Origin: a virus
Direction: 5' to 3' (one strand)
DNA: 25,917 bases
IMG/VR virus record: IMGVR_UViG_3300025085_002306
Span: 1-25,917 of that record
Of the stretch, positions 2,861 through 17,058 are shown one piece after another. The notes beneath the pieces were generated by a model, which was not told the origin of the DNA, searched no databases, and worked only from the letters and a program-made list of their open reading frames with translations. Positions within the stretch are counted from its first letter, which is position 1. Each line of letters begins with the position of its first letter. The position numbers and the translations under genes are program-made.

Positions 2861-3073
2861 ATGACACTCACTACTAAGTTCAAGAAAGACATCCAAACCC
2901 TCAGGGGTGCGGTAAATGGAGAGTTCTTCCTGGATGTGAAGAATCCGAAACTTCTCAAAAAGGTCCGTCGTTATTATGAAAACACTGGTGTTGTCTTTTC
3001 AGGCGATGCCCTTGATGATTATGATATTTTGATGGAACAAATCTCTGTCGATCTTGAAGCGGTAGAAGCATGA
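2861..3073 (+). CDS. Hypothetical 70-residue protein
   Basis: A small soluble acidic/basic mixed protein (MTLTTKFKKDIQTLRGAVNG start, acidic end DLEAVEA). Secondary structure looks mostly helical. It sits directly behind a consensus promoter, which points to early expression after infection. Its stop overlaps the next start as ATGA. I do not recognise a family; small early cyanophage proteins of this size often act on host functions, but nothing in this sequence shows which. Confidence 0.7.
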   Translation: MTLTTKFKKDIQTLRGAVNGEFFLDVKNPKLLKKVRRYYENTGVVFSGDALDDYDILMEQISVDLEAVEA

Positions 3074-3351
3074 ACGATCTAGATCCTAAGTCTGTTGACT
3101 CAACAAAAACTATTGTTATTCATGAACGATTCCCTTATAGGTTCGTTCAGAGAGGTTACATTCAACTTAATGGTAAACCAGATTTTCGTATGCAAAAAGC
3201 AAATGAGTATACTAAAAAATACTCTGATGTTTATTTGTTTGATAATGGAGATCAAATGCTTCTTGCTATTGAAGACCCAGAATATCCTAAATGGTTAGAT
3301 CCAGATGGTGTCCCTTGTTATACAAAAGACTCGGTAAGTCGTGTAAACTAG
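3070..3351 (+). CDS. Hypothetical 93-residue protein
   Basis: A soluble protein rich in aromatic residues, translationally coupled to the gene before it. Alternating polar and hydrophobic residues around 15-35 (TIVIHERFPYRFVQRGYIQL) and 55-75 (VYLFDNGDQMLLAI) suggest beta strands. The C-terminus has PEYPKWLDPDGVPCYT. No known motif is seen. A structured RNA element begins a few bases after its stop. Function unknown. Confidence 0.7.
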   Translation: MNDLDPKSVDSTKTIVIHERFPYRFVQRGYIQLNGKPDFRMQKANEYTKKYSDVYLFDNGDQMLLAIEDPEYPKWLDPDGVPCYTKDSVSRVN

Positions 3352-3357
3352 CCCTGG

Positions 3358-3423
3358 TCGGGATGGTCTTAAGACCCCTGCGTTTCTTAGTTCGTAAAAC
3401 TAAGTGGTGGAGTCATTAGACCC
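3358..3423 (+). ncRNA. Structured RNA element, unit 1
   Basis: Hairpin A is GGTCTTAAGACC (3365-3376), a palindrome enclosed by GG/CC. Hairpin B is CTTAGTT (3386-3392) / AACTAAG (3398-3404), preceded by TTT and followed by GTGGTG. The layout recurs twice downstream with paired base changes. It lies just after the stop of the gene ending at 3351 and before the gene at 3463, so it would be in that mRNA as a 3' or 5' untranslated element. Confidence 0.6.
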
Positions 3424-3432
3424 TTCTAAAAA

Positions 3433-3439
3433 CTAAATA
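3433..3439 (+). promoter_or_regulatory. Possible late-type promoter (CTAAATA)
   Basis: CTAAATA followed by GT, 23 bases before the ATG at 3463, resembles the T4-like late core with one or two changes and shares TAAATAGT with the site at 1035. Tentative. Confidence 0.35.
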
Positions 3440-3462
3440 GTCCAAGAGTTATTTTAATCAAA

Positions 3463-3657
3463 ATGTCAACACAAGGAAAGGCAGCACGATCTGCAACTGG
3501 TGCAGCGATGTCAAAGTATGACGTAGAAGTCGAAGCAAGACTTAACGCACTTGAGTCAGCAATTCATTCACATGAAGGTGGCGGAGATGACGCGAGAGTA
3601 GAGCAATTAATTGCCACACTCAAGCGTGAGTTTCCTGCTAAGTTTGCGGATCTCTAA
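3463..3657 (+). CDS. Hypothetical 64-residue helical protein
   Basis: Begins MSTQGKAARSATGAAMSKYD, then a heptad-like helical region VEVEARLNALESAIHSHEGG, a glycine/aspartate hinge (GGGDDARVE) and a second helix to the end FPAKFADL. A short coiled coil or small adaptor is plausible. It stands alone between structured RNA units 1 and 2, and the first bases of unit 2 lie within its last codons. It has no family I can name, and no Shine-Dalgarno is visible. Confidence 0.7.
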   Translation: MSTQGKAARSATGAAMSKYDVEVEARLNALESAIHSHEGGGDDARVEQLIATLKREFPAKFADL

Positions 3658-3687
3658 GGTTTCTTACTTTACCTAAGAGTAAGTGGT
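3646..3687 (+). ncRNA. Structured RNA element, unit 2 (short form)
   Basis: GCGGAT, a short linker in place of hairpin A, then TTT and hairpin B: CTTACT (3663-3668) / AGTAAG (3678-3683) with two further T-A pairs above a bulged G (3677), followed by GTGGTG. Relative to units 1 and 3 the stem differs by compensating changes. It begins over the stop codon of the upstream gene. Confidence 0.55.
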
Positions 3688-3742
3688 GCGGATGGGATAC
3701 TCCCGCCCTGTTTCTTGCTTCAGGTAAAAGAGCAAGTGGCGT
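3688..3742 (+). ncRNA. Structured RNA element, unit 3
   Basis: GCGGAT, hairpin A GGGA (3694-3697) TAC TCCC (3701-3704), then CTGTTT and hairpin B CTTGCT (3714-3719) / AGCAAG (3731-3736) with the same bulged G (3730) as unit 2, then GTGGCG. It is 42 bases downstream of unit 2 in register and just upstream of the terminator that precedes the sugar operon. Confidence 0.6.
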
Positions 3743-3759
3743 GCATGACAAGACCTTCA

Positions 3760-3788
3760 AAGACCCTTGACAACAAGGGTCTTTTTTT
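3760..3788 (+). terminator. Rho-independent terminator
   Basis: AAGACCCTTG (3760-3769) pairs perfectly with CAAGGGTCTT (3774-3783) across the four-base loop ACAA, followed by a run of T to 3788. It should stop transcription from the genes ending at 3657. Confidence 0.92.
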
Positions 3789-3795
3789 GTATGAT
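3767..3795 (+). promoter_or_regulatory. Sigma-70 promoter for the glycan operon, overlapping the terminator
   Basis: TTGACA (3767-3772), 17-base spacer, TATGAT (3790-3795). The -35 box forms part of the stem and loop of the terminator. The transcript would start near 3802, leaving an 18-base A/T-rich leader before the ATG at 3820. Confidence 0.75.
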
Positions 3796-3819: not shown

Positions 3820-4908
3820 ATGTCTGAATACAGTAAGACAGCACTGGTGCTTGGTGCTGGTGGCTTTATTGGAAGTCATATGGTTAAACGACTACGATCC
3901 GAGGGATACTGGGTGCGTGGTGTTGATCTCAAGTATCCTGAGTTCTCTTCGACTCAAGCACATGAGTTTGTTCAGGGAGATTTGCGTGACGTAAGACTTG
4001 TTCAGGAAGTTATCCAATTCAAAGGATATTCCGGTAACTACAACGCAAACGTACCCTATCAGTACGTTCAACCTTTTGATGAGATCTATCAGTTTGCTGC
4101 TGATATGGGTGGTGCAGGTTTTGTTTTCACTGGAGAAAATGATGCAGACATCATGCACAACTCTGTGTCTATCAACTTAAATGTTCTTGAAGAAGTTCGT
4201 AAGTTGAATGAAACGTTTGATGGTGTAGTTAAGGACTGGACTGAATGCAATCGTCCTAAACTTGATCAACCCACCAAGATCTTCTACTCTGGTTCTGCTT
4301 GCATGTATCCTGAGTACAACCAACTCGATCCTGATAACCCCGATTGCCGTGAAGAATCTGCATACCCCGCAGCACCAGACTCCGAGTATGGATGGGAGAA
4401 ACTCTTCAGTGAGCGTCTCTACTTTGCTTACAATCGTAACCATGGCATCCCTGTTCGGGTTGCTAGGTATCACAACATCTTCGGTCCTGAAGGAACCTGG
4501 GAAGGAGGAAGAGAGAAAGCACCAGCTGCAATCTGCCGTAAAGTTGCTTACCTCCCGGAGCAGGGTGGAGCAATCGAGGTGTGGGGAGATGGCTTACAAA
4601 CTCGTTCCTTCTTGTTCGTTGACGAATGCGTTGAAGCAACTAGAAGACTAATGGATAGTGACTTTATGGGTCCTGTGAATATTGGTTCTGAGGAGATGGT
4701 CACTATCAATCAACTTGTAGAGACTGCTGCTAAAGTTGCAGAAAAGGAAGTTGCTAAGATTCATATCGACGGCCCTCTGGGTGTTCGTGGTCGTAACTCT
4801 AACAACGACCTGATTCGTGAGAATCTTGATTGGGACTATTCTCAAACCTTAGAAGAAGGTATTCGTATTACATATAACTGGATTAAGGAACAAATCGATG
4901 TCATTTGA
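3820..4908 (+). CDS. GDP-mannose 3,5-epimerase-like enzyme
   Basis: A 362-residue extended short-chain dehydrogenase/epimerase. The NAD site is GAGGFIGSH (12-20). The sequence follows plant-type GDP-mannose 3,5-epimerase closely: GSACMYPEYNQ with the catalytic Cys at 161, Y190-x3-K194, HNIFGPEGTWEGGREKAPAA with K233, WGDGLQTRSF with R262, and a C-terminus GVRGRNSNNDLI and ITYNWIKEQI. That family converts GDP-mannose to GDP-L-galactose (and GDP-L-gulose). All catalytic residues I know for the family are present, plus two insertions near residues 68-82 and 138-150. It is the first gene of the operon, directly behind the strong promoter. GDP-fucose synthase (WcaG-like) is the main alternative, but the GGREKAPAA and GTW features favour GME. 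Confidence 0.85.
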   Translation: MSEYSKTALVLGAGGFIGSHMVKRLRSEGYWVRGVDLKYPEFSSTQAHEFVQGDLRDVRLVQEVIQFKGYSGNYNANVPYQYVQPFDEIYQFAADMGGAGFVFTGENDADIMHNSVSINLNVLEEVRKLNETFDGVVKDWTECNRPKLDQPTKIFYSGSACMYPEYNQLDPDNPDCREESAYPAAPDSEYGWEKLFSERLYFAYNRNHGIPVRVARYHNIFGPEGTWEGGREKAPAAICRKVAYLPEQGGAIEVWGDGLQTRSFLFVDECVEATRRLMDSDFMGPVNIGSEEMVTINQLVETAAKVAEKEVAKIHIDGPLGVRGRNSNNDLIRENLDWDYSQTLEEGIRITYNWIKEQIDVI

Positions 4909-5548
4909 TCATAATATTATCAAGCAAAAAATTGGTCGAGTTCTTCATATTGGTGCAGACCGTGGTGGAGAACTCCCTCAATACAAAGATATGGGTGTTG
5001 AGGAAGTAGTTTGGGTAGAAGCAAATCCAGAGGTCTATGGTGAACTTCTGGAGAACCTTGAGATCATGAACGTTAGTGAGGTTCAGAGTCGTCCTTTCAA
5101 TCAACTTATCTCAGATAATGATGATGTTGAACTTGACTTTAATCTTTATTATGGTTGGGATGCAGGACACTTGGTAGGAAACAAGGGTATGTCTTCCCTC
5201 CTCCAAGCTAGAAACTCTTGGTGGGGATCTGAATGTTATCGTGGAACTATCAAACTCAATTCTCTTTCTGTGGATACTTTCCTAGAAAGAAATGAGATTG
5301 ATAACTCATTTGATATGATGAATATTGATACTCAGGGTGCAGAACTCATGGTGTTCAAAGGGGCAACTGAAGTTCTGAAGAAAGTGAGTGTGATTAACTG
5401 TGAGGTCACTTTTCATACACCTCACTACCATGATAATCCTGACTTTGATGAGGTATATGAATACCTGAAACCATTTGGATTCAAGCATATTCACACTGAC
5501 TATTGTCTGGAACGTAACTGGGGCGATGCCGTATTCGTGAAAGAATGA
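4898..5548 (+). CDS. FkbM-family methyltransferase
   Basis: 216 residues with a class I SAM-dependent methyltransferase fold. The SAM motif is RVLHIGADRGGELPQY (14-29), with the acidic residue at VEANP (about 40-44), and the family hallmark DMMNIDTQGAELMVFKGA lies at about residues 139-156. FkbM proteins O-methylate sugars or polyketides, and members in surface-polysaccharide clusters usually methylate glycan hydroxyls. The start overlaps the epimerase end by 11 bases. It likely modifies a sugar placed by the glycosyltransferases encoded downstream; the target is unknown. Confidence 0.87.
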   Translation: MSFDHNIIKQKIGRVLHIGADRGGELPQYKDMGVEEVVWVEANPEVYGELLENLEIMNVSEVQSRPFNQLISDNDDVELDFNLYYGWDAGHLVGNKGMSSLLQARNSWWGSECYRGTIKLNSLSVDTFLERNEIDNSFDMMNIDTQGAELMVFKGATEVLKKVSVINCEVTFHTPHYHDNPDFDEVYEYLKPFGFKHIHTDYCLERNWGDAVFVKE

Positions 5549-6312
5549 AAAAGTATTGTATAATTAAACAACCTGCTGGATTTGGAGACATACTATTTTG
5601 TCAAAAGATTGCAAAGGTGTTTCAAGAGAATACTGAATACAAAGAAATTATATGGCCAGTCGCTCCTGTGTATTCTTTTATTCAAGAATACATGGGAGAT
5701 GAGAATCTTCATTTTCCTAGGGAAGATGAGGATTTTCCTTTTAAAGAAGTGTATGAATCCAATAGTTACAGTTGTCTGCAGTCTGATCAATTCTTATTCA
5801 TTCCTCTACAGACTGCTGATTATACGATTTCATCTTGCAAATGTCATGGAAGTCGTAGAGATCATGGACACATCAAGTACAATTTCTGTAATGTAGACTA
5901 TCTCGACTGGAAAGATTATCTTTCATTTCGACGTTTTGAAAACAGAGAAGATGCTTTGATAGACTATCTTGGACTTGATCTAAACGAACCTTATAATCTA
6001 ATCAATAAGAGTTGCGGTACTCCTCCTCACTGTGAGTATCGTGAAAATATTAAACCAGATAATGATTATAAGAATATCTACATGGATCCCCTTGAAGGGT
6101 TCTCTTTATTTGACTGGTGTAAAGTGTTTGAACATGCACAAGAGATTCATACCATGGAAACTGGTGTATGGTATGTACTTGATAAACTAGGTTTAGAGAA
6201 TGTCTACATTTACTCTAAATACACAAGCGATTGGAATCCCGAAAAACATCTTCCAGATGACTTTTCGTATATGAAAGATAACTGCAATCCGAATTGGAAA
6301 CTTATTAACTAG
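5545..6312 (+). CDS. Glycosyltransferase-like protein of uncertain family
   Basis: 255 residues, translationally coupled by ATGA. The N-terminus KKYCIIKQPAGFGDILFCQKIAKVF (2-26) has the GxGD..F..P-like opening seen in GT-B enzymes such as the GT9 heptosyltransferases. Near the end, HTMETGVWYVLDKLGL (about 202-217) resembles the donor-binding ET...Y.L segment of the C-terminal half in that fold. The middle is cysteine-containing and has no recognised motif. The context among sugar genes supports a glycan role. At 255 residues it is shorter than the usual 320-350 of GT9, so the assignment is weak. It could be a fucosyltransferase-type fold or a related unclassified family. Confidence 0.5.
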   Translation: MKKYCIIKQPAGFGDILFCQKIAKVFQENTEYKEIIWPVAPVYSFIQEYMGDENLHFPREDEDFPFKEVYESNSYSCLQSDQFLFIPLQTADYTISSCKCHGSRRDHGHIKYNFCNVDYLDWKDYLSFRRFENREDALIDYLGLDLNEPYNLINKSCGTPPHCEYRENIKPDNDYKNIYMDPLEGFSLFDWCKVFEHAQEIHTMETGVWYVLDKLGLENVYIYSKYTSDWNPEKHLPDDFSYMKDNCNPNWKLIN

Positions 6313-6325
6313 GAGATTTTATTAG

Positions 6326-6958
6326 ATGGGATGCTTACGACGACATGAATTGACCGGATACATCAAAGACTATGGTCTAGAGTATTACTTTGAAACTGGA
6401 ACTGGTAAAGCAGAGGCTCTACAACATGCTGTCAACTATCCATTCAAAAAGTGCTACACTGTGGATATTGATGAGGACATGGTGGAGTATTCATACAACA
6501 AACTCAAGGATGAATCTACCTGCGATATTGAATTTTTTGTAGGAAAGTCTACTGAAGCTCTGGATGAACATGTTCCTGAGTTACCAGCAGATGTCCCCAC
6601 TCTATTCTTCCTGGACGCACACTTTCCTGGAGCAGACTTTCACAAGTGTAGTTACGAAGAATCTATCCGAGAGCACAAGCAAGATGCATTTCCACTAGAG
6701 GAAGAAGTGGATATTATTCTTAAGCATAGAGATGTTTCCAAAGATGTCTTTATTGTTGACGATTTGATTCTGTACCAAAAGGATGCTAAAGTAGAGTGTC
6801 TGCAGCAAGGTATCGTGTGGAAATACGACTGGCTTCAGGAGGAACTAAACCTTCAAACTAGCGCAAACTTCCTGTATAAGAAGTTTGAAAAGACACATGA
6901 CTTTAAAACCGACTTGAGAGATCAAGGATACCTTATTATTACACCCAAATCTAAATGA
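6326..6958 (+). CDS. SAM-dependent methyltransferase-like protein
   Basis: A 210-residue protein with class I methyltransferase features: YYFETGTGKAEALQHAV (20-36) for motif I, YTVDIDEDMVEYS (about 44-56) with an acidic SAM-ribose contact, and a post-motif TLFFLDAHFPGADFH (about 91-105). The histidine after FLDAHF is as in TylF/MycF-like sugar O-methyltransferases, a plausible but unproven relation. A good Shine-Dalgarno (TAGGAG) overlaps the previous stop. This is the largest gap in the operon, 13 bases. It probably methylates a sugar; the substrate is unknown. Confidence 0.65.
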   Translation: MGCLRRHELTGYIKDYGLEYYFETGTGKAEALQHAVNYPFKKCYTVDIDEDMVEYSYNKLKDESTCDIEFFVGKSTEALDEHVPELPADVPTLFFLDAHFPGADFHKCSYEESIREHKQDAFPLEEEVDIILKHRDVSKDVFIVDDLILYQKDAKVECLQQGIVWKYDWLQEELNLQTSANFLYKKFEKTHDFKTDLRDQGYLIITPKSK

Positions 6959-7815
6959 AAACAATTGTTATTTCCTCTGACCACAACGGAGTTGAAGATA
7001 AAGAACAACTGAAGACATATTTGAAAGGTGAAGGGTATCGTGTTATTGACATCGGACCCTATACTCCAGAGGTTAGTGTTGATTATGTGGACTATGCTGC
7101 ACAACTTTCGACTATCGTAAGTAACAAGGAAGCAGACAGAGGTATCCTTCTCTGTGGCACTGGTGTTGGTATGAGTATCGTTGCTAATCGGTATCCTGGA
7201 GTCCGTGCAGTGCTTGCACATAACGAATTAACTGCTGTTAAGTCCAGGGAACATAACGATTCTAACGTCCTTTGTCTTGGATCTTGGCTTTCCTCTCAGA
7301 TTGAGATGCGAGAGATGTCTAAGATGTGGTTAGATGAGGCATGGGGAGAAGGTCGTCACATTAAACGTCTGACAAAAATTGATGCCAATACAGGAATTGT
7401 ACTGACAAATGGTGTCTTTGACATTCTACATAAGGGTCATATTGAACTTCTGAAGTTCTCTAAGATGCAAGGAACGAAACTGATTATTGCTATTGATTCT
7501 GATCGTAGAGTCAAAGAGTTGAAGGGAAATGACCGACCGATCAATAATCAGGAGGATCGTAGGAGAATTCTTGAGACCAATCGGTATGTAGATGAGGTTG
7601 TGATCTTTGATTCTGTAGAAGAATTGCAAGGATTCTACGATACTTTATCTCCAAATGTGATCGTCAAGGGGTCTGAATGGACTGCTGATGAGGTCAGAGA
7701 ACGTGATAATATTCCAGAGAACATTCAGATTAAGGTCTATCCTCTGGTTGGTGACTATTCCACCACAAATACTATGCACAAGATTCGGGATATGGAAAAA
7801 TGCGAGAAAATCTGA
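6955..7815 (+). CDS. Fusion of RpiB/LacAB-type sugar-phosphate isomerase and HldE/RfaE2-type nucleotidyltransferase
   Basis: Two clear domains in 286 residues. Residues 1-130 match RpiB: SSDHNG (7-12), ILLCGTGVGMSI (64-75) with catalytic-position C67, and REHNDSNVLCLGS (98-110). Residues 144-286 match the C-terminal domain of HldE (heptose-1-phosphate adenylyltransferase): TNGVFDILHKGHI (151-163, HxGH motif), SDRRVKELKGNDRPIN (182-197), VIVKGSEWT (235-243) and YSTTN (268-272). In E. coli HldE the nucleotidyltransferase is fused to the kinase; here it is fused to an isomerase, and the kinase is the next gene, overlapping by 16 bases. I infer the isomerase replaces GmhA and converts a ketose phosphate (sedoheptulose-7-P, or a pentulose-P) into the aldose that the kinase and transferase then activate. 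Confidence 0.87.
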   Translation: MKTIVISSDHNGVEDKEQLKTYLKGEGYRVIDIGPYTPEVSVDYVDYAAQLSTIVSNKEADRGILLCGTGVGMSIVANRYPGVRAVLAHNELTAVKSREHNDSNVLCLGSWLSSQIEMREMSKMWLDEAWGEGRHIKRLTKIDANTGIVLTNGVFDILHKGHIELLKFSKMQGTKLIIAIDSDRRVKELKGNDRPINNQEDRRRILETNRYVDEVVIFDSVEELQGFYDTLSPNVIVKGSEWTADEVRERDNIPENIQIKVYPLVGDYSTTNTMHKIRDMEKCEKI

Positions 7816-8579
7816 AGTATCTAATTATTGGTGATACGATTATTGATGAGACTGTTGAGTTGAAAGTCAGTGGTCTTTCTTTGGAATCACCTACAATTAA
7901 AACCACTCCTGTTGATCGATACTATGACTATGGTGGTGCTGCAAATGTGGCAAAATACCTGTCAAAGTTTGGTAGAGACGTGACATTTGTCACTTCTATG
8001 GATATTTCTATGGCAGAAATGTTTGAAGAGAAGTATAATGTTCGAGTATTGAATTATTTTCAGGGAAAACCAAATGTCAAGACCAGATATTGGGTGAGCC
8101 ATGGTGATTCTAGATACAAACATCTCCAGGTAAATGATGTAAACGGTGAGTTTTCCTTATCAACTCTAGAAAATTTTGACATAGATGGGTATGATATCGT
8201 TGCATTCTCTGACTATCGTTGTGGATTTATCAAGGAGTCATTCATCTCTCATGTGACAAACACTGGGAAAATTACATACGCATCTTCTCAAATTTCTAGT
8301 CAACAATCCAACTATGATCGGTATTTTGATATCGATTATCTTGTTTGTAACAAACATGAGTCTCAATTTACTGATAGATTGACCAATATTTGCATCACTA
8401 TGGGTGATGAAGGGTGTATAATGAACGGCATAAAGCACTCTATTGCTCCTGTAAAGGACCCAATAAATACGATTGGTGCAGGTGATTGCTTCTATGCCGC
8501 TCTGTTAGCGACAGGCGATCCCAACTTTGCTAATAAAAAAGCGTCTGAGTATGTTTCTAACAATATTGAAAGAGATTGA
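7800..8579 (+). CDS. PfkB-family sugar kinase, HldE/RfaE1-like
   Basis: 259 residues. Signatures: GDTIIDETVEL (11-21), SPTIKTTPVDRYYDYGGAANVAKYL (30-54), which match the HldE kinase start (sugar-binding region GGAANVA), and the PfkB family motif TIGAGDCF with D229 as the catalytic base. HldE kinase phosphorylates heptose-7-phosphate at O1; the full-length domain is about 310 residues, so this is a shortened version. It overlaps the end of the RpiB-nucleotidyltransferase fusion, and together they would supply the kinase and nucleotidyl transfer steps of an activated heptose (or analogous sugar). The phosphatase GmhB is not seen in HldE form, though a HAD phosphatase lies further down (14702-15049). 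Confidence 0.82.
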   Translation: MRENLKYLIIGDTIIDETVELKVSGLSLESPTIKTTPVDRYYDYGGAANVAKYLSKFGRDVTFVTSMDISMAEMFEEKYNVRVLNYFQGKPNVKTRYWVSHGDSRYKHLQVNDVNGEFSLSTLENFDIDGYDIVAFSDYRCGFIKESFISHVTNTGKITYASSQISSQQSNYDRYFDIDYLVCNKHESQFTDRLTNICITMGDEGCIMNGIKHSIAPVKDPINTIGAGDCFYAALLATGDPNFANKKASEYVSNNIERD

Positions 8580-9255
8580 GGACTGCCTCAAGCTTAACAA
8601 GAGTCTAAAAGAAAATAACTTAGTAAAACTAACTTGGGGTAATGCTAGTGTGCTTTCCGAAGATGGAAAGCATGTTGTGATCAAACCATCTGGGGTTGAC
8701 TTTGACAAAATTAAGTTCAGTGATCTCTGTATCATAGAACTCTATACTGGAAAGTTGATTTCTGGAATGAAACCATCTGTAGATACTGCTATTCACTTAG
8801 AGATCTACAAGGCATTTCCAGAGATCAAGTCTATTATCCATAGTCATTCTAAGTTTGCAACCTCTTGGGCTCAGGCACTGAAGTCCATTCCAATCCTTGG
8901 AACTACACATGCAGACTATTTCTTGTCTGACATTCCGATTGCAAGGCAACTTGAGAAGAATGAACTGGAAGAATATGAAAAGAATCTAGGACAGTCTGTT
9001 GTTGATTATTTTCAAAAGCACAAGGTTAATCCTCTGAATATTCCTGCAATACTTCTGCCTGGGCATGGTGTTATGGTCTTCTCCAACTCACCAAAGAGAA
9101 CTTTGGAGTGTGCTATCGTGCTTGAAGAAATAGCAGAGATGGCGTATTATACTGTAAAGATAAATCCAAACATAGAACAAACAGAATTATCTGAAATTTT
9201 GTACGAAAAACACTTTGAACGAAAGAATGGCATCAACAAATACTACGGACAATAG
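8551..9255 (+). CDS. Class II aldolase/adducin-family protein, AraD-like
   Basis: I take the ATG at 8551 (MFLTILKEIEDCLKLN), since the open frame upstream has only a TTG start and sits inside the kinase gene; the overlap is 29 bases. The 234-residue protein follows L-ribulose-5-phosphate 4-epimerase: KLTWGNASVL, VIKPSGVDFD, SVDTAIHLEIYKAFPEI, then the metal site IIHSHSKFATSWAQ and GTTHADYF, with a third histidine in LLPGHGVMVFS. The family includes 4-epimerases of L-ribulose/D-xylulose-5-phosphate and aldolases. In this cluster it may provide a pentose phosphate or a triose unit for an unusual sugar. The substrate cannot be read from sequence. Confidence 0.82.
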   Translation: MFLTILKEIEDCLKLNKSLKENNLVKLTWGNASVLSEDGKHVVIKPSGVDFDKIKFSDLCIIELYTGKLISGMKPSVDTAIHLEIYKAFPEIKSIIHSHSKFATSWAQALKSIPILGTTHADYFLSDIPIARQLEKNELEEYEKNLGQSVVDYFQKHKVNPLNIPAILLPGHGVMVFSNSPKRTLECAIVLEEIAEMAYYTVKINPNIEQTELSEILYEKHFERKNGINKYYGQ

Positions 9256-9652
9256 TTACGGAAGACAGGACTTACCCCCTGTTCTTAAGTGTGATGAGAA
9301 GAGAGACAAGTATTGGGGTTACATTACCACAGTGTTTGCTACTGAAGACTTCACACTCAAAGAAGTCTTTATGAAGGGTGGTACTCAAAGTAGTATGGAG
9401 TATCATGTCAATAAAGACGAATATTACTACATCCAATCTGGTAAATTAAAGGTTGGAATGAGGATCGGAAGAGCAAAAAACAAGTCAATCATTCTTGAAG
9501 CAGGTGATGTGTTTCACATTCCACCAGGTTTGATGCATATGCGTATTGCAATTGAGGACACGCTTGTGATAGAATGGTCGAATAAAGACGATGATAGTGA
9601 CTCTAACATCGTTGAAGATGGCAAAACCTACGTATTTACTGAAGACGAATGA
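9227..9652 (+). CDS. Cupin-domain protein (mannose-6-phosphate isomerase-like)
   Basis: The start at 9227 (MASTNTTDNSYGRQDLPPV) follows GAAAG and is preferred over an upstream TTG. In 141 residues there is one cupin: EYHVNKDEYYYIQSGKLKV, which supplies the HxxxE-type metal-binding motif, then EAGDVFHIPPGLMHMRIAI with the distal histidine. Such small cupins resemble the sugar-phosphate isomerase and dTDP-sugar epimerase superfamily and often sit in glycan operons. It overlaps the AraD-like gene by 29 bases. The likely role is sugar-phosphate isomerisation or epimerisation; alternative cupin functions (dioxygenase, binding protein) are not excluded. Confidence 0.75.
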   Translation: MASTNTTDNSYGRQDLPPVLKCDEKRDKYWGYITTVFATEDFTLKEVFMKGGTQSSMEYHVNKDEYYYIQSGKLKVGMRIGRAKNKSIILEAGDVFHIPPGLMHMRIAIEDTLVIEWSNKDDDSDSNIVEDGKTYVFTEDE

Positions 9653-10320
9653 ATTATCTGTTTGCTGACACAGCTAACCTTGATGAGATCAAGGTAGCAC
9701 ATGACATGGGTGTGATTCAAGGTGTGACAACCAATCCATCCATTATTGCTAAAGAACCACAAGGAAGTTTTGATGATTTGATCATGAAACTCTCTGAGTA
9801 TTGTGGTGCAGAGAAACTTTCTCTGAGTGTAGAGGTCTTTGCTGAAGAATATGATGCGATCGTGAAGCAGGCATGTGAGATCTATGAGAAGTTCTCTGCT
9901 GTATGTCCTGATCTTTACGTCAAAATTCCTGTTGGATTTGATGAACTACGAGCAATCAAGACTTGTTCTAAGAATGGTGTAAAGATTAATGCTACTATCT
10001 GCTATAGTGAACAGCAACTTATTCACTGTGCCTCTGCTGGTGCCAAGTATGTTTCTCTGTTCTATTGCCGACTGAAGCAACATGGTGGTGATGTAGAGAG
10101 GGCTCTGAAGAGAACTCGACGCTACATTCTTGAGAACGGTTTGGACACTCAGATTATCGCTGGTAGTATTCGCACACAGCAAGACGTGTGTGATGCCTGG
10201 GATTATGGTGCTGACATCGTTACAACGGGCCTTCCTGTTATTAAAGAGATGGTTTCTCACCCCAAAACAACGGAATCTTATAATGGATTCATGAATGATT
10301 TTTCTGCGTGGATGAATTGA
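9649..10320 (+). CDS. talC: Transaldolase/fructose-6-phosphate aldolase-like enzyme (TalC type)
   Basis: 223 residues in a compact TalC/FSA TIM-barrel. The start MNYLFADTANLDEIK and GVTTNPSIIAKEP (25-37) are classic, the Schiff-base lysine is K92 in YVKIPVGFDEL, and GVKINATICYSEQQLIHCASAGAKYVSLFY follows. TalC is a known cyanophage gene that redirects host carbon through the pentose phosphate pathway. Its place here, inside the surface-sugar operon next to an isomerase, kinase and aldolase rather than with electron-transport genes, suggests it may supply sedoheptulose-7-phosphate for the heptose-type module, which is inference. ATGA overlap with the cupin gene. Confidence 0.87.
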   Translation: MNYLFADTANLDEIKVAHDMGVIQGVTTNPSIIAKEPQGSFDDLIMKLSEYCGAEKLSLSVEVFAEEYDAIVKQACEIYEKFSAVCPDLYVKIPVGFDELRAIKTCSKNGVKINATICYSEQQLIHCASAGAKYVSLFYCRLKQHGGDVERALKRTRRYILENGLDTQIIAGSIRTQQDVCDAWDYGADIVTTGLPVIKEMVSHPKTTESYNGFMNDFSAWMN

Positions 10321-11072
10321 TGAATAGGATTGAAGATTATCTTGAACTAAAATTGAATCTTGTTAAGTGGATTAAAGAATACGCAGACAAAAATAAGATC
10401 AAATCACTGGTCGTTGGTGTATCGGGTGGTATTGATTCTGCTGTAGTCTCTACTCTTTGTGCTGAGACTGGACTTCCTACTTATGTTTTAGGTATGCCTA
10501 TTCATCAGAAAGAAGATCAGGAAAATTTATCAGATATACATCTTGATTGGTTGGTAGGGAAATATGCCAACGTAACCAAACTTAAGTACGACTTATCCAA
10601 TACATTTAATACATTTGTATCTGCTATGGATGGGTATAACGAAAATAAACTTGCTCTTGCAAACACTAGATCTCGTATTCGCATGGTGACTTTATATCAG
10701 GTTGCTGGATCTGTAGGTGGTATCGTAGTAGGTACAGGAAATAAAGTTGAAGATTACGGTGTCGGATTCTATACTAAATATGGTGACGGAGGAGTTGATA
10801 TCGCTCCTATCGCAGACCTTTACAAAACTGAAGTATGGGAACTTGGAAAATTTTTGGGAGTTGACCCAGGAATTATTGAAGCAAAACCAACTGATGGATT
10901 ATGGGATGATGGTAGAAACGATGAAGACCAACTAGGTGCTTCTTATGAAGATCTAGAGTATGCCATGGAGCATGGCCATGGACCTGCCGTTAGAGTCTTA
11001 CATGACTTTAATGCCCAAAATAAGCATAAAATGATACCTATTCCTACATTCAAACTGGAGAGTAAAGTATGA
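10320..11072 (+). CDS. nadE: NH3-dependent NAD+ synthetase
   Basis: The start at 10320 overlaps the previous stop as TGATG; an in-frame GTG at 10308 is possible. 250 residues with the ATP-pyrophosphatase P-loop GVSGGIDSAVV (about 34-44), then ANTRSRIRMVTLYQVA, GTGNKVEDYGVGFYTKYGDG, and IAPIADLYKTEVWELGKFLGV with a final DEDQLGASYEDL. It makes NAD+ from nicotinic acid adenine dinucleotide with ammonia. No glutaminase domain is fused, as in bacterial NadE. NAD would serve the dehydrogenase that follows, and could also sustain infection when host NAD is depleted. The function is firm from motifs; the reason for its place here is inferred. Confidence 0.9.
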   Translation: MNRIEDYLELKLNLVKWIKEYADKNKIKSLVVGVSGGIDSAVVSTLCAETGLPTYVLGMPIHQKEDQENLSDIHLDWLVGKYANVTKLKYDLSNTFNTFVSAMDGYNENKLALANTRSRIRMVTLYQVAGSVGGIVVGTGNKVEDYGVGFYTKYGDGGVDIAPIADLYKTEVWELGKFLGVDPGIIEAKPTDGLWDDGRNDEDQLGASYEDLEYAMEHGHGPAVRVLHDFNAQNKHKMIPIPTFKLESKV

Positions 11073-12295
11073 CAAACGTTGCGATGATTGGCGTAGGCAA
11101 GTTGGGTCAAGCCTGCGCTGAAGTTATGGCAGAAACATATCCAGTTGTTGGATATGATGTATCTCCCAGAAGTCCTAAGAACTTTGAAATGGTTGATACT
11201 GTTGAGAAGGCAGTGAACTTTGGCGATATTATTTTTATCGCTGCTCCTACTCCTCATGATCCCCTGTATGATGGCCGTCAACCAACTGCTCATCTACCTA
11301 ACAAAGATTTTGACTACACGATTGTCAAAGAGATTATTGGCAACGTAAATCAATATGCAGACAAGTCTAAACTTGTAGTGCTGATCTCCACAGTTCTTCC
11401 TGGCACCACACGTCGGGAACTTGAACCGTTGATTACTAATGCAAGGTTCGTCTACAATCCATATCTGATTGCTATGGGTACTGTTGGTTGGGACTTCTCT
11501 AATCCAGAGATGGTGATGATTGGAACTGACGATGGATCTGAGACTGGTGATGCAAAAGAACTGATCGACTTCTATCTTCCTATGATGAAGAATGCTCCAC
11601 GTTTCGTTGTAGGAACCTGGGACGAGTGTGAGTGCATTAAGATTTTCTACAATACCTTCATCTCTGCCAAACTCAGTCTGGTTAATATGATCCAGGATGT
11701 TGCAGAGAAGCAGGGTAACATTAATGTTGACGTTGTTACCGATGCACTGAAGAACTCTGATCAACGTATCATGGGCCCTCGCTACATGAAGGCAGGTATG
11801 GGTGATGGTGGTGCTTGTCACCCTAGAGATAATATTGCTTTACGTTGGATGTCAGATAACCTTGATTTGGGTTATGATATCTTTGACGCTATCATGGAAG
11901 CAAGAGAGATTCAGGCAAAGAACATCGCTATCAAACTCCTGGAACCTGGTCTTCCTGTTGTGATTGTTGGTAAGGCATACAAACCCCACGTTCACTACGT
12001 TGACGGATCTTACAGCATCTTGGTGGGGCATTACGTTGAAGAACTTGGCGGCACTGTCTACTATGATGATGACTATACTGGGGATAAACCGCCCGAAGAT
12101 TTAGGTGCTGCATCTTATCTGTTGGGACATGATCCTGAGTCTGCATTCCTTGGATGTCTTGATCCTGATCCAGACAAGGAAGAGTCTTCTATCTTCCCAG
12201 AGGGGTCTGTAATTATTGATCCTTGGAGAAAGTGTCCAGATATTCCTGGATGCACAGTTGTTCACTATGGTAATACCAGATTCAAGAGAGGTTGA
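11069..12295 (+). CDS. UDP-glucose/GDP-mannose dehydrogenase family protein
   Basis: 408 residues. A Rossmann start VAMIGVGKLGQACAEV (4-19), the central helical segment with ECIKIFYNTFISAKL (about 187-201) containing the lysine and asparagine of the family, and the catalytic cysteine C250 in GDGGACHPRDN (247-257 region), matching GxGGxCxPKD except that the lysine is arginine. These enzymes oxidise a nucleotide sugar to the uronic acid with two NAD+. The C-terminal domain (about 280-408) is present with GKAYKP. The N-terminal part of the TPHDPLYDGRQPT segment diverges from standard UGDH, so the sugar donor is unclear. ATGA overlap with nadE, whose product is NAD+. Confidence 0.82.
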   Translation: MTNVAMIGVGKLGQACAEVMAETYPVVGYDVSPRSPKNFEMVDTVEKAVNFGDIIFIAAPTPHDPLYDGRQPTAHLPNKDFDYTIVKEIIGNVNQYADKSKLVVLISTVLPGTTRRELEPLITNARFVYNPYLIAMGTVGWDFSNPEMVMIGTDDGSETGDAKELIDFYLPMMKNAPRFVVGTWDECECIKIFYNTFISAKLSLVNMIQDVAEKQGNINVDVVTDALKNSDQRIMGPRYMKAGMGDGGACHPRDNIALRWMSDNLDLGYDIFDAIMEAREIQAKNIAIKLLEPGLPVVIVGKAYKPHVHYVDGSYSILVGHYVEELGGTVYYDDDYTGDKPPEDLGAASYLLGHDPESAFLGCLDPDPDKEESSIFPEGSVIIDPWRKCPDIPGCTVVHYGNTRFKRG

Positions 12296-12296
12296 T

Positions 12297-13082
12297 ATGT
12301 TAAAATTTTCAGACAGAATGAGAAATGGACAATCCCCTTGGATTGTCAACATTTATGAGCAGTTCTTCAAAGATAAGACTGATGGATTCCTTGTAGAGAT
12401 TGGTGTTGGTGAAGTTCTTGACTGGACCAAGATGGGATTTCATAGTTCCACTGGATCTGGTGATAAGGGATATGTGAATGCTAATAGCACTGACAGAGTT
12501 CTTGACTGGGATGTTGATTGGGACAACGGTAAGATCATTCAAGGTGACAATCACACTGTAGAATTAGTTCAACAAGGTTGGACTGGTATCTACATCGATC
12601 CTCTTCGTGAGTTTATTGATAATGAACTGGAACCTGTATTCAAAAAGACTCTGACTGAAGAGCATTTCAATAAGATCAAGTTTGTGCGACAAGGAGCCTC
12701 TGATAGAAAGAAGGTATGTGTGCTAGAGCATCATGAAACTCTTGCTGAGACGGATGATTTTACGATTACTGGTGAGATTCAACCATACAATTATCAAGGA
12801 AGAAAGGTTGTTTGTGATAGAACATCTGATATCCTAGAAGAGAATGGTTGCCCCTATGATATCGACTTTATGTTGATTGATGCCGAGTCTGCTGAGGTTG
12901 ACATCATTAATGGTATTGACTTTGATAAGCATAGACCTAGACTGATGTTCATCGAGACCATGCACACGGGTAGAGAAGCAATCACAGATGTCCTTCCTGA
13001 TGAATACATCGAGGCAGTGACTGATGGATTGAATACTCTGTACGTTCATGAGAACTTCTATAAGGGACCAATCATCTTATGA
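12297..13082 (+). CDS. FkbM-family methyltransferase-like protein
   Basis: The start at 12297, one base after the dehydrogenase stop, is preferred over a distant upstream ATG. 261 residues. The N-terminal half holds GFLVEIGVGEVLDWTKMG (about 30-47), a SAM-binding-like loop, and GIYIDPLREF with an acidic residue. The later TSDILEENGCPYDIDFMLIDAESAEVDIINGIDF is the FkbM-type D-x-E-G/A hallmark (LIDAESAEVDIINGI). The protein has a long insertion (about 50-85) with aromatic and aspartate residues absent from the other FkbM gene at 4898. Probably an O-methyltransferase on a sugar, unproven. Confidence 0.7.
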   Translation: MLKFSDRMRNGQSPWIVNIYEQFFKDKTDGFLVEIGVGEVLDWTKMGFHSSTGSGDKGYVNANSTDRVLDWDVDWDNGKIIQGDNHTVELVQQGWTGIYIDPLREFIDNELEPVFKKTLTEEHFNKIKFVRQGASDRKKVCVLEHHETLAETDDFTITGEIQPYNYQGRKVVCDRTSDILEENGCPYDIDFMLIDAESAEVDIINGIDFDKHRPRLMFIETMHTGREAITDVLPDEYIEAVTDGLNTLYVHENFYKGPIIL

Positions 13083-13888
13083 GTAGGGTAAAGTATAATC
13101 TGGTGGGTAATACCTTTACTCACCTTACTAACGGGAACAAAGGATATTCCGTACATGGGAAGGAATCAAAATATCTTGAGTGGAGTAATGATAATCCTTT
13201 AGCAGAGGGAACTTTCTATATTGATAATACTATCAACGATGGTATTAATGATGATCGAAAAGGTCTGAAGTATCTTTGGCTTTTAGAGTCCAAGTATATC
13301 AAGCAAGGACTGGTAGAAAGTATCATCGCCAATCGTGAATTGGTTGAAGATACCTATGAGACTATCTTCACTCATGATCAGAGGTTGCTCTCTCTTGGTG
13401 GTAAGTATAAGTGGGTTCCTGCTCAAGGTTTCTGGATCAAGGAACCAAAGATCTATGAGAAGTCAAAAATGATTTCTATGATTGCTTCTAATAAAAACAT
13501 GTGCGAAGGGCATAGACTTCGCCTTGAATGGGTAGAGAAGATTGGTGATCAAGTTGATCTCTATGGCCGTGGATTTAATGAGATTGAAGATAAAGAAGAG
13601 GGACTTTGTGATTACATGTTCTCTGTTGCAATTGAGAACGGACAGTATAAAACATATTTCACTGAAAAGATTCTAGATTGTTTTGCCACAGGAACCATTC
13701 CTGTGTATCTTGGTGCTCCTGATATTGGTGATCACTTTAATATGGATGGAATCATTCAGTTGAGTGATGAGTTTGACATCTCAGATGACATTTATTATGA
13801 TAGGATGGATGCGATCAAAGATAATTTAGAACGCGCAAAGAAAATGGAAGTTTTAGAAGACTTCATTTGGGAAAACTACTTACGGTAA
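13079..13888 (+). CDS. Glycosyltransferase family 10 (fucosyltransferase-like)
   Basis: 269 residues. The C-terminal half carries the GT10 alpha-1,3-fucosyltransferase signature: MFSVAIENGQYKTYFTEK (about residues 180-197), then ILDCFATGTIPVYLGAPDIG (198-217), equivalent to the family's FEN...YVTEK...A...G.VPV..G. An acceptor-domain segment MISMIASNKNMCEGHRLRLEWV precedes it. GT10 uses GDP-L-fucose. Since the first operon gene should make GDP-L-galactose, the donor here might be GDP-L-galactose, a C6-hydroxyl analogue of GDP-fucose (inference). ATGA overlap. Confidence 0.85.
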   Translation: MSRVKYNLVGNTFTHLTNGNKGYSVHGKESKYLEWSNDNPLAEGTFYIDNTINDGINDDRKGLKYLWLLESKYIKQGLVESIIANRELVEDTYETIFTHDQRLLSLGGKYKWVPAQGFWIKEPKIYEKSKMISMIASNKNMCEGHRLRLEWVEKIGDQVDLYGRGFNEIEDKEEGLCDYMFSVAIENGQYKTYFTEKILDCFATGTIPVYLGAPDIGDHFNMDGIIQLSDEFDISDDIYYDRMDAIKDNLERAKKMEVLEDFIWENYLR

Positions 13889-13889
13889 A

Positions 13890-14705
13890 ATGGTAACGGC
13901 AACACTAAGACATATTAAAGACTTTCATTATTGGAACCTAGGACCAGACGGCACGTATCAGAACGGATTTTATCCAAGTCTGGTACGTGTTCCTGGTAGA
14001 AAGGGCTATATTGGAACCTGTAGGAATGGTAGGGCAAACCTTGATGATGTCTTGCATATCATTCACTATGATGACGATTTCAACCTGACTTATAGAAAAG
14101 AGATTACCAAAGGTGAAGACCCTAGGACGTTTGTCTTTAATAATAAGGCATACTCCCTGACCTGGGATCCTAATCATCAAGAGATCTTGAGATATAAGTT
14201 AGTTGACTTGATTGACGAGAAAGTAATCAATCTCTATATCGATAATGTTCCACCATCTCCTCTCCGCGTTCTTGGTAAGAATTGGATGACCATGCAGAAG
14301 GATGGTGAACTTTACATTCTTCTGACTATTGACCCAGAGATTAATATTCTTCACGTTGATATTGAGACTGGTGAGTGTACATGGGTAACACCATTTGAAA
14401 ATGTACAAAGAGGTTTGCCCATTTCAGATAGCAGAGGTGGAAGTCCTTTGATTTTCCATGAGAAACTGGATATGTATATTGGTTTGGGTCATAGAACTCA
14501 CAACTATGAAAGGCATACACCATTCCTTTACACACTGTCAAAGGACTTTAAGACTTCTGTAATGGGTGAGGATATTGAAACTGGTAAGACTGTAGTGGAG
14601 GATCCTCTCTCAATCTATGAGGAAGATGGAAAGATCTATTGTTGCATTAGTAATTGGCTTCACCCAGATGGATGTGCTAATTTGTATGAGGTTACTGTAG
14701 AATGA
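13890..14705 (+). CDS. Five-bladed beta-propeller protein, GH130/GH43-like
   Basis: 271 residues. Repeated strand blades with a K/E-D-P-R box: KGEDPRTFVFNNKAYSLTWD (about 71-90) recalls the EDPR motif at the start of a blade in GH130 mannoside phosphorylases. GRANLDDVLHIIHYD and RGGSPLIFHEKLDMYIGLGHR form similar repeats. These propellers usually cleave or phosphorolyse glycosidic bonds; if catalysis is retained it could trim or scavenge mannosides. Being inside an operon of glycan transferases, it might also be a non-catalytic glycan-binding protein. I see no clear second catalytic residue, so activity is uncertain. Confidence 0.6.
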   Translation: MVTATLRHIKDFHYWNLGPDGTYQNGFYPSLVRVPGRKGYIGTCRNGRANLDDVLHIIHYDDDFNLTYRKEITKGEDPRTFVFNNKAYSLTWDPNHQEILRYKLVDLIDEKVINLYIDNVPPSPLRVLGKNWMTMQKDGELYILLTIDPEINILHVDIETGECTWVTPFENVQRGLPISDSRGGSPLIFHEKLDMYIGLGHRTHNYERHTPFLYTLSKDFKTSVMGEDIETGKTVVEDPLSIYEEDGKIYCCISNWLHPDGCANLYEVTVE

Positions 14706-15049
14706 GATACGTTGTAGATATTGACGGAACTATCTGTATTCCTGGTCCTACTGATGAAACAAGGTATGATCAGGCACTTCCAATTCAGGATCGGATAGAT
14801 GAAATAAATAAGTTGTATGATGAAGGTCACACTATCATCTACTTAACTGCCAGAGGAATGGGTAGGCACAAAAATAATGCAAACCTGGCAAGACAAGAAT
14901 TTTACGAATTTACTGAAATACAATTGAGTTTGTGGGGATGTAAATATCATGAACTTCATCTTGGAAAACCTACGGCTGATTTTTATATTGATGATAGGGG
15001 GGTAAATTCTGATGAGTTCTTTTCACAAGAAACCGTGGGGAGGGTATGA
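14702..15049 (+). CDS. HAD-superfamily phosphatase (capsule/LPS biosynthesis type)
   Basis: 115 residues, small HAD fold. Motif I is VVDIDGTIC (DxDxT), motif II TARG (around residue 50), and the final acidic motif IDDRG near residues 96-100. The size and layout resemble the short HAD phosphatases found in capsule clusters. It could remove the C7 phosphate from a heptose-1,7-bisphosphate, doing the job of GmhB, or act on another sugar phosphate. ATGA overlap with the propeller gene, and 38 bases overlap with the cupin that follows. Confidence 0.8.
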   Translation: MRYVVDIDGTICIPGPTDETRYDQALPIQDRIDEINKLYDEGHTIIYLTARGMGRHKNNANLARQEFYEFTEIQLSLWGCKYHELHLGKPTADFYIDDRGVNSDEFFSQETVGRV

Positions 15050-15353
15050 AGTTCTACTAGATTCTGAAACTTATAAAGTAAAGAGAATCATAGTAGATCC
15101 ATATCAACAGTTTTCACTTCAGTATCACAATAAAAGAGTAGAGCACTGGGTGATTGTAGATGGTGGAGGTAAAGTAATCGTTGATAACAGCGAACATATT
15201 GCCTTCCTTAGATCTTCATGGTATATTAAAGAGAAATCTATTCATAGAGCAACAGCTGCTTCGGACGGATTAGTTTTTATCGAAACCCAAATTGGTAAGT
15301 GTGATGAAGATGATATCGTCAGAATACAAGATGATTATGGAAGAGTAACATGA
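15012..15353 (+). CDS. Mannose-6-phosphate isomerase type II cupin
   Basis: 113 residues: KPWGGYEVLLDSETYKVKRI, DPYQQFSLQYHNKRVEHWVIVDG and IKEKSIHRATAA form the cupin of the type II phosphomannose isomerases, whose usual pattern is RPWG.Y......KVK.I.V.PG..LS.Q.H..R.EHW.VV.G. It converts fructose-6-phosphate to mannose-6-phosphate. The guanylyltransferase half is absent, so the host must supply GDP-mannose synthesis. This links to the GDP-mannose 3,5-epimerase-like gene at the operon head. Long overlap with the upstream gene. Confidence 0.85.
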   Translation: MSSFHKKPWGGYEVLLDSETYKVKRIIVDPYQQFSLQYHNKRVEHWVIVDGGGKVIVDNSEHIAFLRSSWYIKEKSIHRATAASDGLVFIETQIGKCDEDDIVRIQDDYGRVT

Positions 15354-16201
15354 AAGTTTTAAATCTCGGATCAAGTGGGCAAATTGGTGCCTACCTTACA
15401 GAATACCTTCGCAAGAAAGGTCATGAGGTTATCGAGTATGATAAGAACCTTGGAGCACAATACAACCTCACTGCTATACCTAGCACCTGGTTAGAGTCCT
15501 GTATCAAGCAAGCAGACTTTGTATTCTTCCTTGCCTTTGATGTAGGTGGTTCACGATACCTGAAGAAGTATCAGCATACCTTTGACTTCATCAATAATAA
15601 TACTAGACTGATGGCAAATGTCTTCGGTCTGTTGGAGAAGTACAATAAAAGATTTGTGTTTGCATCATCTCAGATGAGCAACATGTCTTACTCTCCTTAT
15701 GGTGTAATGAAACGAGTGGGTGAACTTTACACTACATCACTGAAGGGACTAACTGTTAAGTTCTGGAATGTGTATGGTATCGAGAAAGACATGGACAAGG
15801 CTCATGTCATCACTGACTTCATCAAGAAAGGATTTGAAGAGGGTGATTTTGAGATGATGACCGATGGCACTGAAGAACGTCAGTTCCTCTATGCTGAGGA
15901 CTGTTGTGAGGCACTTGAATCCATCATGGAAAACTATACTGACTTTAAATCAGAAGATCCCCTGCACATTACATCTTTCCATGCAACATCTATTAAAGAA
16001 GTTGCTGCAATCATCATGGGACAGTTCAATTTGATTGACAAACCAGTTAGAATTAATCCTGGTCTTGCAAAAGATAGTGTGCAGATGGATAAGAGAAATG
16101 AGGCAGATACTTATATCACTGGATGGTGGATGCCTAAAACTAACATGCAAGACGGTATCAAAGCAGTCTTTGACGAAATGAAAAAGGAGTATGGTTACTG
16201 A
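15350..16201 (+). CDS. NAD-dependent epimerase/dehydratase (extended SDR)
   Basis: 283 residues: nucleotide-binding loop NLGSSGQIGAYL (about 5-16), catalytic triad-like FASSQMSNMSYSPYGVMK where Y and K are the YxxxK pair, and NVYG plus DCCEAL of the substrate domain. It belongs to the GalE/WcaG/RmlD-type extended SDRs acting on nucleotide sugars. It is shorter than the usual 310-330. It may carry out an epimerisation or reduction on the GDP-sugar. The substrate is not determinable. ATGA overlap with the cupin. Confidence 0.8.
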   Translation: MKVLNLGSSGQIGAYLTEYLRKKGHEVIEYDKNLGAQYNLTAIPSTWLESCIKQADFVFFLAFDVGGSRYLKKYQHTFDFINNNTRLMANVFGLLEKYNKRFVFASSQMSNMSYSPYGVMKRVGELYTTSLKGLTVKFWNVYGIEKDMDKAHVITDFIKKGFEEGDFEMMTDGTEERQFLYAEDCCEALESIMENYTDFKSEDPLHITSFHATSIKEVAAIIMGQFNLIDKPVRINPGLAKDSVQMDKRNEADTYITGWWMPKTNMQDGIKAVFDEMKKEYGY

Positions 16202-17058
16202 TGTTATCTTTTAATAAACTTGGTAAGTCTGGTCGTCTTGGCAACCAGATGTTTCAATATGCAGCACTGAGAGGTATTGCTGCCAATCGTGGGTTTGACT
16301 GGGTTGTTCCACCTCCAGGTACATCAGGTGTTGATGAGTTTGGTTGTGAGAACAACTACTGTATGTTTGAAACCTTCAAGATGACTGGTGCCACAGAGGA
16401 GCATCATGGCATTCCTGATAATATTCCTTGGGCTATCTGGAAAGAGTTTCACTTCAACGAACAACTCTTTAATGAATGTCCTGATAATGTAAACCTGGAT
16501 GGATACTTTCAGACCGAGAGATATTTTGAGAATGTAGAGAAAGAGATCCGTGAGGACTTTAAGTTCCAGGACTCTATCTACAAACCATGTAAGGAGATGA
16601 TGGATAGTATTGAGGGTGATCGTAAGATCTTCCTTCACATCCGTCGTGGTGATCCTAAGTTGCCTTGGGCATATGTTAACCTAGAGGCAGCACATCCCGT
16701 ATGTACATTTGATTATTATGAAAAAGCCCTTGCTGAGTTTCCTGATGATATCCCTGTCGTTGTGTTCTCTGATGTTATTGAATGGTGTAAGGAACAGGAA
16801 TTCTTTAATCCAGATCGATTCATTTTTTCCGAGACCACTGATGAATTATCTGATGGTCAGAGAGTCCCCTGGACAGATCTATGTCTAATGTCTCTCTGTA
16901 CCGATGCTATCATCGCCAACAGTTCATTCTCTTGGTGGGGTGCATGGTTGATTGATAATCCTGAGAAAAAAGTAATCGCACCTAAGAGATGGTTTGGCGC
17001 ACAGTATGATCACTATCATATGGATGACTTGATTCCTGAAACCTGGACTGTTCTGTAA
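16201..17058 (+). CDS. Glycosyltransferase family 11 (alpha-1,2-fucosyltransferase-like), copy 1
   Basis: 285 residues. The start LGKSGRLGNQMFQYAALRGIA is the GT11 donor-domain opening. LHIRRGDP near residue 143 carries the family H-x-R-R-x-D motif, and SSFSWWGAWL near 240 is the conserved C-terminal motif. GT11 enzymes use GDP-fucose. A second copy lies at 17861, with a GT2 gene between, indicating tandem duplication. Copy 1 has a region of about 30 residues (WVVPPPGTSGVDEFGCENN) not like copy 2. It starts at the TGATG overlap with the epimerase. The donor could be GDP-L-galactose if the operon head makes it (inference). Confidence 0.85.
   Translation: MLSFNKLGKSGRLGNQMFQYAALRGIAANRGFDWVVPPPGTSGVDEFGCENNYCMFETFKMTGATEEHHGIPDNIPWAIWKEFHFNEQLFNECPDNVNLDGYFQTERYFENVEKEIREDFKFQDSIYKPCKEMMDSIEGDRKIFLHIRRGDPKLPWAYVNLEAAHPVCTFDYYEKALAEFPDDIPVVVFSDVIEWCKEQEFFNPDRFIFSETTDELSDGQRVPWTDLCLMSLCTDAIIANSSFSWWGAWLIDNPEKKVIAPKRWFGAQYDHYHMDDLIPETWTVL

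Follow-up and report, generated by a model that had tools for sequence, protein, structure and literature searches.

A complete wcaG-family RNA with four units arrayed in order behind gp205- and gp206-like genes of a T4-like cyanophage, possibly the noncoding 3′ end of their transcript

The stretch of DNA analyzed here, the window, is 25.9 kb (25,917 nucleotides) of a T4-like cyanophage virus, and every feature given below with window coordinates lies on the plus strand. An ORF for a Phd-like antitoxin is followed by tRNA-Ile, tRNA-Met, a gp205-like ORF (2861-3073; phrog_552, T4-like GC 249), a gp206-like ORF (3070-3351; phrog_481, T4-like GC 250), a group of RNA units into which a 64-aa ORF is set (3463-3657; phrog_35121, function unknown), and a glycan operon whose first gene encodes a nucleotide-sugar epimerase/dehydratase (3820-4908; Pfam Epimerase, 2e-35). 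From 3820 to 19478, about 15 kb of genes lie on the same strand, with the epimerase and an FkbM-type methyltransferase at the start, and this block is probably devoted to glycan synthesis. The antitoxin is of the Phd/YefM-like kind (56 aa, 2489-2659; phrog_375, 1.6e-12), no adjoining toxin gene was recognized, and lone Phd-like antitoxins are found in the same neighborhood in S-H9-1, Sf-CH3, and DSL-LC03.

The full RNA element consists of four units, I to IV, with the 64-aa ORF between II and III. Unit I (3324-3363) is of type B, whose general layout is a stem GTC/GAC, a loop NYGGX, a spacer, and CCCTGG; in the window the stem is GACT/AGTC (3328-3331/3337-3340), overlapping the final codons of the gp206-like ORF, and is followed by a loop with the conserved GG, a spacer, and CCCTGGTCGGGA. 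A hairpin, GGTCTTAAGACC (GGTC-TTAA-GACC, 3365-3376), comes after it. Units II, III, and IV are of type A, a compact H-type pseudoknot laid out as S1 (3-4 bp), UUU, S2 (6-7 bp), S1′, an A-rich linker, S2′, and UGG[U/C]G. In unit II (3379-3413), GCG (3380-3382) faces CGT (3393-3395) with one G-T pair, the stem is 3386-3391/3399-3404, and TGGTGGAGTC follows; in unit III (3656-3692), GGT (3658-3660) faces ACC (3671-3673), the stem is 3663-3668/3678-3683, and TGGTGCGGATGGG follows; in unit IV (3707-3745), CCTG (3707-3710) faces CAGG (3721-3724), the stem is 3714-3719/3731-3736, and TGGCGTGCATG follows. Between units III and IV lies a hairpin, GGGA-TAC-TCCC (3694-3704), which is the second hairpin of the Rfam wcaG model RF01761. 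Behind unit II, CTAAATA (3433-3439) resembles the T4-like late promoter (NATAAATA; consensus from PMC2984593), and 33 of the 144 loci have such a motif within 40 nt downstream of unit II, against a background of about 1%.

An initial annotation of this DNA had described a three-copy element with covarying stems, each copy carrying GCGGAT or a variant of it. The three stems are real (CTTAGT/ACTAAG in unit II, CTTACT/AGTAAG in III, and CTTGCT/AGCAAG in IV), with TTT on the 5′ side and GTGGYG on the 3′ side of each and with positions 4 and 5 differing in both arms, and the second hairpins that it named also exist. The count of three holds for type A only, since the unit of the second type at 3324-3363 was overlooked, and what had been taken as the first copy is a mixture of the ends of units I and II. 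Each stem also sits within an H-type pseudoknot that had gone unseen. For the middle copy, the GCGGAT register was wrong: the one at 3647-3652 belongs to the coding region of the 64-aa ORF, and the conserved order is the stem and then TGGTGCGGATGGG. Finally, the shared bulged G (3677 and 3730) is better read as part of a T-G wobble, which adds a seventh, closing pair to the stem.

We searched the window with a type-A model (R1) and a type-B model (R2). R1 was made from 26 units, window units II and III included, and the R2 alignment included window unit I, so the scores of 41.9, 44.6, and 45.2 bits for units II, III, and IV, and of 42.9 bits (E 1.2e-10) for unit I, are partly matches by construction; the informative part is therefore their uniqueness. 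R1 found the three type-A places and nowhere else in the window, at E ≤ 2.5e-10, and R2 found unit I plus a single chance match of 9 bits.

The initial annotation had suggested either a member of the wcaG RNA family or a new repeated RNA, and both the family membership and the repeated RNA proved correct. RF01761, a covariance model of 98 nt with a gathering cut-off of 42 bits, matches 3655-3750, that is, units III and IV, at 96 bits (E 1.9e-17), so that their membership of the family is certain. A second match, at 3324-3418, reaches 43.1 bits (E 4.2e-5), barely above the cut-off. The three wcaG hairpins and the invariant GUGGUGCGGAUGGG and GUGGCG segments are present in the RF01761 alignment and the homologs. 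As matched here, the wcaG of Rfam is a pair of similar units, the last half of a longer four-unit array, and the pseudoknot pairs of type A, as well as the crossing pairs of type B, are all absent from the model as run. Neither the text of the wcaG papers nor the Rfam model was found to contain an architecture of four units, a unit of type B, covarying pseudoknot pairs, or the terminator-promoter context described below. The locus shares with the published family the sequence of units III and IV, the three hairpins, the T4-like cyanophage origin, and the epimerase gene downstream; it differs in that the 64-aa ORF splits the array and that a terminator and a promoter stand between the RNA and its supposed target gene. 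Under a lax threshold, the only match to another Rfam family was a chance one, to ST7-OT4_1.

The wcaG RNA was confirmed in all 20 BLAST-matched Kyanoviridae/cyanophage isolates, with one RNA per genome in each of them. A search of plasmids for wcaG gave no match, and no cyanobacterial genome in GTDB contained a long exact pattern of the array. Matches to that pattern elsewhere in GTDB were set aside: three in Actinomadura are presumed to be due to chance, and one lies on a 10.6-kb MAG contig that may be viral. For comparison across phages, we assembled 188 distinct loci from 20 named phages and from IMG/VR contigs found with exact patterns, a set in which relatives are oversampled.

Pairing was evaluated in these relatives by arm-swap tests and by an APC-corrected G-test on column pairs. 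Of 54 distinct unit IV sequences, 48 can form all four base pairs of the pseudoknot helix, compared with 14.4 ± 2.8 when arms are swapped (maximum 24 over 1000), and the arms are of six types: CTGG/CCAG, CCTG/CAGG, CCAG/CTGG, CAGG/CCTG, CTAG/CTAG, and CGAG/CTCG. When column pairs were ranked with no structure supplied, the top 7 of 210 all belonged to the predicted structure: pseudoknot pairs took the first two ranks, and the other five were pairs of the stem. For unit III, a 3-bp helix is formed in 66 of 109 sequences versus 30.6 ± 4.3 after swapping, a count of Watson-Crick pairs alone that leaves the GGT/ACC register of the window uncounted. The pairing that the initial annotation had proposed to check in homologs is thus kept with compensatory changes. 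These sequence comparisons establish units II to IV as H-type pseudoknots, and no columns covary more strongly in the relatives than those of the pseudoknot pairs. The type-B stem varies among relatives as GTC/GAC, GAC/GTC, and GTG/CAC, and two of the loop bases have covarying partners 3′ of the stem: the Y-R pair is C-G or T-A in 136 of 137 cases and T-G in one, and X-X′ is the top-scoring APC-corrected pair. As these loop pairs cross the stem, type B is also some form of pseudoknot.

The usual order of the units can be read from their connectors, which are TGGTCGGG (I), TGGTGGAGTC (II), TGGTGCGGATGG (III), and TGGCG(TGCATG or AGCCTG) (IV). Of the 187 loci examined for it, 90 have I before II and 31 have the reverse order, whereas 51 yielded just one of these units and 15 neither. 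Small genes interrupt the array between I and II, or between II and III as in the window. The size of the array varies as well, some phages having an extra unit and some having two. Six loci (L151, L152, L153, L156, L157, and L161) have an extra hairpin unit of the CCTGTTTTGCAACTGAACTAAAACAGGTGGCGTGCATG type 3′ of unit IV, after GTGGTGGATCC or a similar connector, and such longer arrays belong mostly to phages in which tRNA-Gly comes next. In S-MS29 and a relative (L162 and L113), the unit IV stem is GGTGGT/ACCACC and unit IV is fused to the 5′ end of tRNA-Leu, as if the two had recombined at the common GTGGCG.

In 151 of 162 loci, a gp205, gp206, or gp207 gene is found within the 1.5 kb before the array, the gp205- and gp206-like ORFs being the constant neighbors in the window, and in 142 of 162 the first unit overlaps or closely follows a stop codon, whereas random positions give 17%. 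Downstream, an intrinsic terminator begins within 110 nt in 137 of the 182 loci with enough sequence (0.96% at random positions), mostly at a fixed short distance of 12-21 nt behind the RNA (median 17 nt). A tRNA gene lies within 220 nt downstream in 24 of the 182, two of which also have a terminator; one or the other is thus found in 159 loci, and neither in 23. Lone type-B units are also known: in S-RS29, S-CAM9, S-IOM18, S-PRM1, and five contigs, one lies between tRNA-Leu, which it directly follows, and tRNA-Thr.

This placement could suggest an element of 3′-end stability or processing, in which the pseudoknots would stop exonucleases or show where polycistronic transcripts, tRNA precursors included, are to be cleaved. 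The units directly behind stop codons, the tRNA genes next to the array, and the lone type-B units within tRNA clusters all agree with such a role. Nevertheless, we find it unlikely, as the invariant unpaired sequence and the ordered, non-identical units exceed what a generic block needs and the 3′ end is shielded by an intrinsic terminator in any case.

In the window, the terminator is AAAGACCCTTG-ACAA-CAAGGGTCTTTTTTT (3759-3788), comparable to those of the relatives, and the RNA plus this terminator folds with a z-score of -3.87. It overlaps a putative sigma-70-type promoter, TTGACA-17-TATGAT (3767-3795), with the -35 box inside the terminator hairpin and the -10 box (3790-3795) behind the T run. 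The same composite recurs in relatives: a -10 hexamer lies no more than 5 nt past the T run in 115 of the 137 terminators, and the terminator loop is usually TTGCAT or TTGACA, at the place of a -35 box. Transcripts from the window promoter would begin about 18-25 nt upstream of the epimerase ATG at 3820, giving a leader of ~20 nt that would not contain the RNA.

A strong terminator directly behind the array and at the border of variable cassettes could also point to antitermination by nascent RNA, in the style of HK022 put or the Bacillus EAR: the array would bind RNA polymerase and let transcription from upstream pass the terminator into the cassette. EAR is associated with long downstream glycan operons, and some of the phages have such operons behind the array. 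On the other hand, many arrays precede a tRNA or nothing that could be read through, the lone units in tRNA clusters have no terminator, and the embedded promoter removes the need for read-through. The idea seems quite improbable to us.

The published reading is different again. Weinberg 2010 (PMC2864571) placed wcaG in possible 5′UTRs of exopolysaccharide or high-light genes and considered it a riboswitch candidate with a probable cis-regulatory role, a reading repeated in later cyanophage papers. In the window, such regulation would act through attenuation at the terminator behind the RNA. Several observations fit this proposal. Compact pseudoknots with invariant loops resemble an aptamer, the terminator lies close behind the RNA in most loci, upstream transcription that reads through could extend into the next gene, and sugar-nucleotide genes are downstream in 101 of 166 contig loci (about 60%). 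In the 20 isolates, however, the next gene is a sugar gene in only 5 and a tRNA in 8. The RNA occurs with no epimerase gene nearby in S-RSM4, S-PM2, S-CAM1, Syn9, and others, and in S-B05 the two are 30 kb apart; conversely, S-SSM7, P-TIM68, S-PRM1, and S-CAM9 have the epimerase gene but no RNA. The RNA of the window does lie upstream of the epimerase gene, but with a terminator and a promoter in between, and across the loci the next gene is usually served by a promoter of its own within the terminator.

We also looked for an expression platform that competes with the aptamer. Neither the terminator arms nor the 3′ linker coevolve with the RNA: antiterminator or attenuator pairing between RNA and terminator was no better for native than for swapped arms (z -0.25 and 0.10), and a closing helix seen in the minimum-energy fold, between AAGGUUU on the 5′ side of unit III and the linker GACCUU, showed no coevolution with unit III. 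Given the intervening promoter, the lack of antiterminator coevolution, and the low number of isolates in which a sugar gene comes next, the array is probably no switch for the sugar gene behind it, and the 5′UTR riboswitch reading appears doubtful and rather unlikely on the sequences compared here. The role as leader of the glycan operon implied by the initial annotation is unsupported for the same arrangement of terminator and promoter. The RNA may nonetheless act as a leader where a start codon closely follows, as in S-H38, L023, and L201, which have no terminator or tRNA downstream and a start codon within about 40 nt, and control by read-through may likewise occur.

We propose instead that the element is a wcaG-family RNA in full form that acts as a 3′-terminal, multi-site noncoding RNA binding a protein and does not serve the epimerase gene as a leader, a reading to which we give a probability of about 45%. 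From the terminator and promoter sequences, the array would form the 3′ tail of the transcript of gp205 and gp206, and likewise of that of the inserted ORF; transcription would stop at the terminator, and the array would persist as a stable structured RNA. The invariant unpaired GGTCGGGA, GGTGGAGTC, and GGTGCGGATGG, recurring from unit to unit, would be bound repeatedly by a single protein of the phage or the host, so that the array could serve as a binding platform or decoy, and the sugar gene, hli gene, or tRNA downstream would merely be the next transcription unit. We tentatively favor protein binding because the invariant unpaired segments recur unit by unit. Against the proposal stand the loci with neither terminator nor tRNA downstream, several of them with a close start codon, the frequency of sugar-nucleotide genes downstream in the contig set, and the isolated type-B units beside tRNA-Leu, which could point to RNA processing. 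The AlphaFold models of gp205 (pLDDT 92) and gp206 (pLDDT 74), in which an RNA-binding fold was sought, matched no solved structure at E ≤ 0.001. More generally, it is possible, and we suggest it with some reserve, that the "wcaG RNA" is a fragment of a so far undescribed modular phage noncoding RNA of 1 to 5 pseudoknot units of two types, located behind stop codons and tRNAs of cyanomyoviruses; it would work in trans on a protein of the host or the phage and not as a riboswitch of sugar genes.

One could think of a counter-defense target for such an RNA, the array mimicking an antitoxin and neutralizing a host RNase toxin or abortive-infection protein. Type III antitoxins are likewise pseudoknot arrays, a lone Phd-like antitoxin gene is close by in the window, and S-CREM1 has an abiF RNA. 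As a working analogy, ToxI too is a chain of small H-type pseudoknots that ends at a terminator. However, the array has no type III antitoxin match in Rfam, no ToxN, CptN, or TenpN gene was present among the neighbors searched, the units are ordered and different rather than tandem copies, and the long exact pattern found no array in host genomes, all of which makes this role very unlikely.

The proposed protein-binding array can also be compared with STAXI (Weinberg 2010), which shares the tandem pseudoknot units; STAXI is one repeated unit near DNA-processing genes, whereas the wcaG array has different units in a set order. wcaG has been an unsolved riboswitch candidate since 2010, and new cyanophage annotations repeat the cis-regulatory label. 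Should it prove to be the end of an upstream transcript, looking for a ligand within sugar metabolism would be misdirected, and most of the Synechococcus T4-like phages examined would carry a highly conserved structured RNA. In S-PM2 (L126, 484-2281), a region of ~1.8 kb with the wcaG RNA, from a conserved hypothetical gene to the next annotated gene, is unannotated in GenBank, and the wcaG RNA is not discussed in the published paper on RNA-seq of S-PM2 infection. The manA RNA (RF01745) is another cyanophage riboswitch candidate, with no sequence match in the window. In S-CREM1 it lies among tRNAs, sharing 1.3 kb with wcaG, and at L132 of this phage (1972-2870) the wcaG, manA, and abiF RNAs and several tRNAs are clustered within about 0.9 kb.
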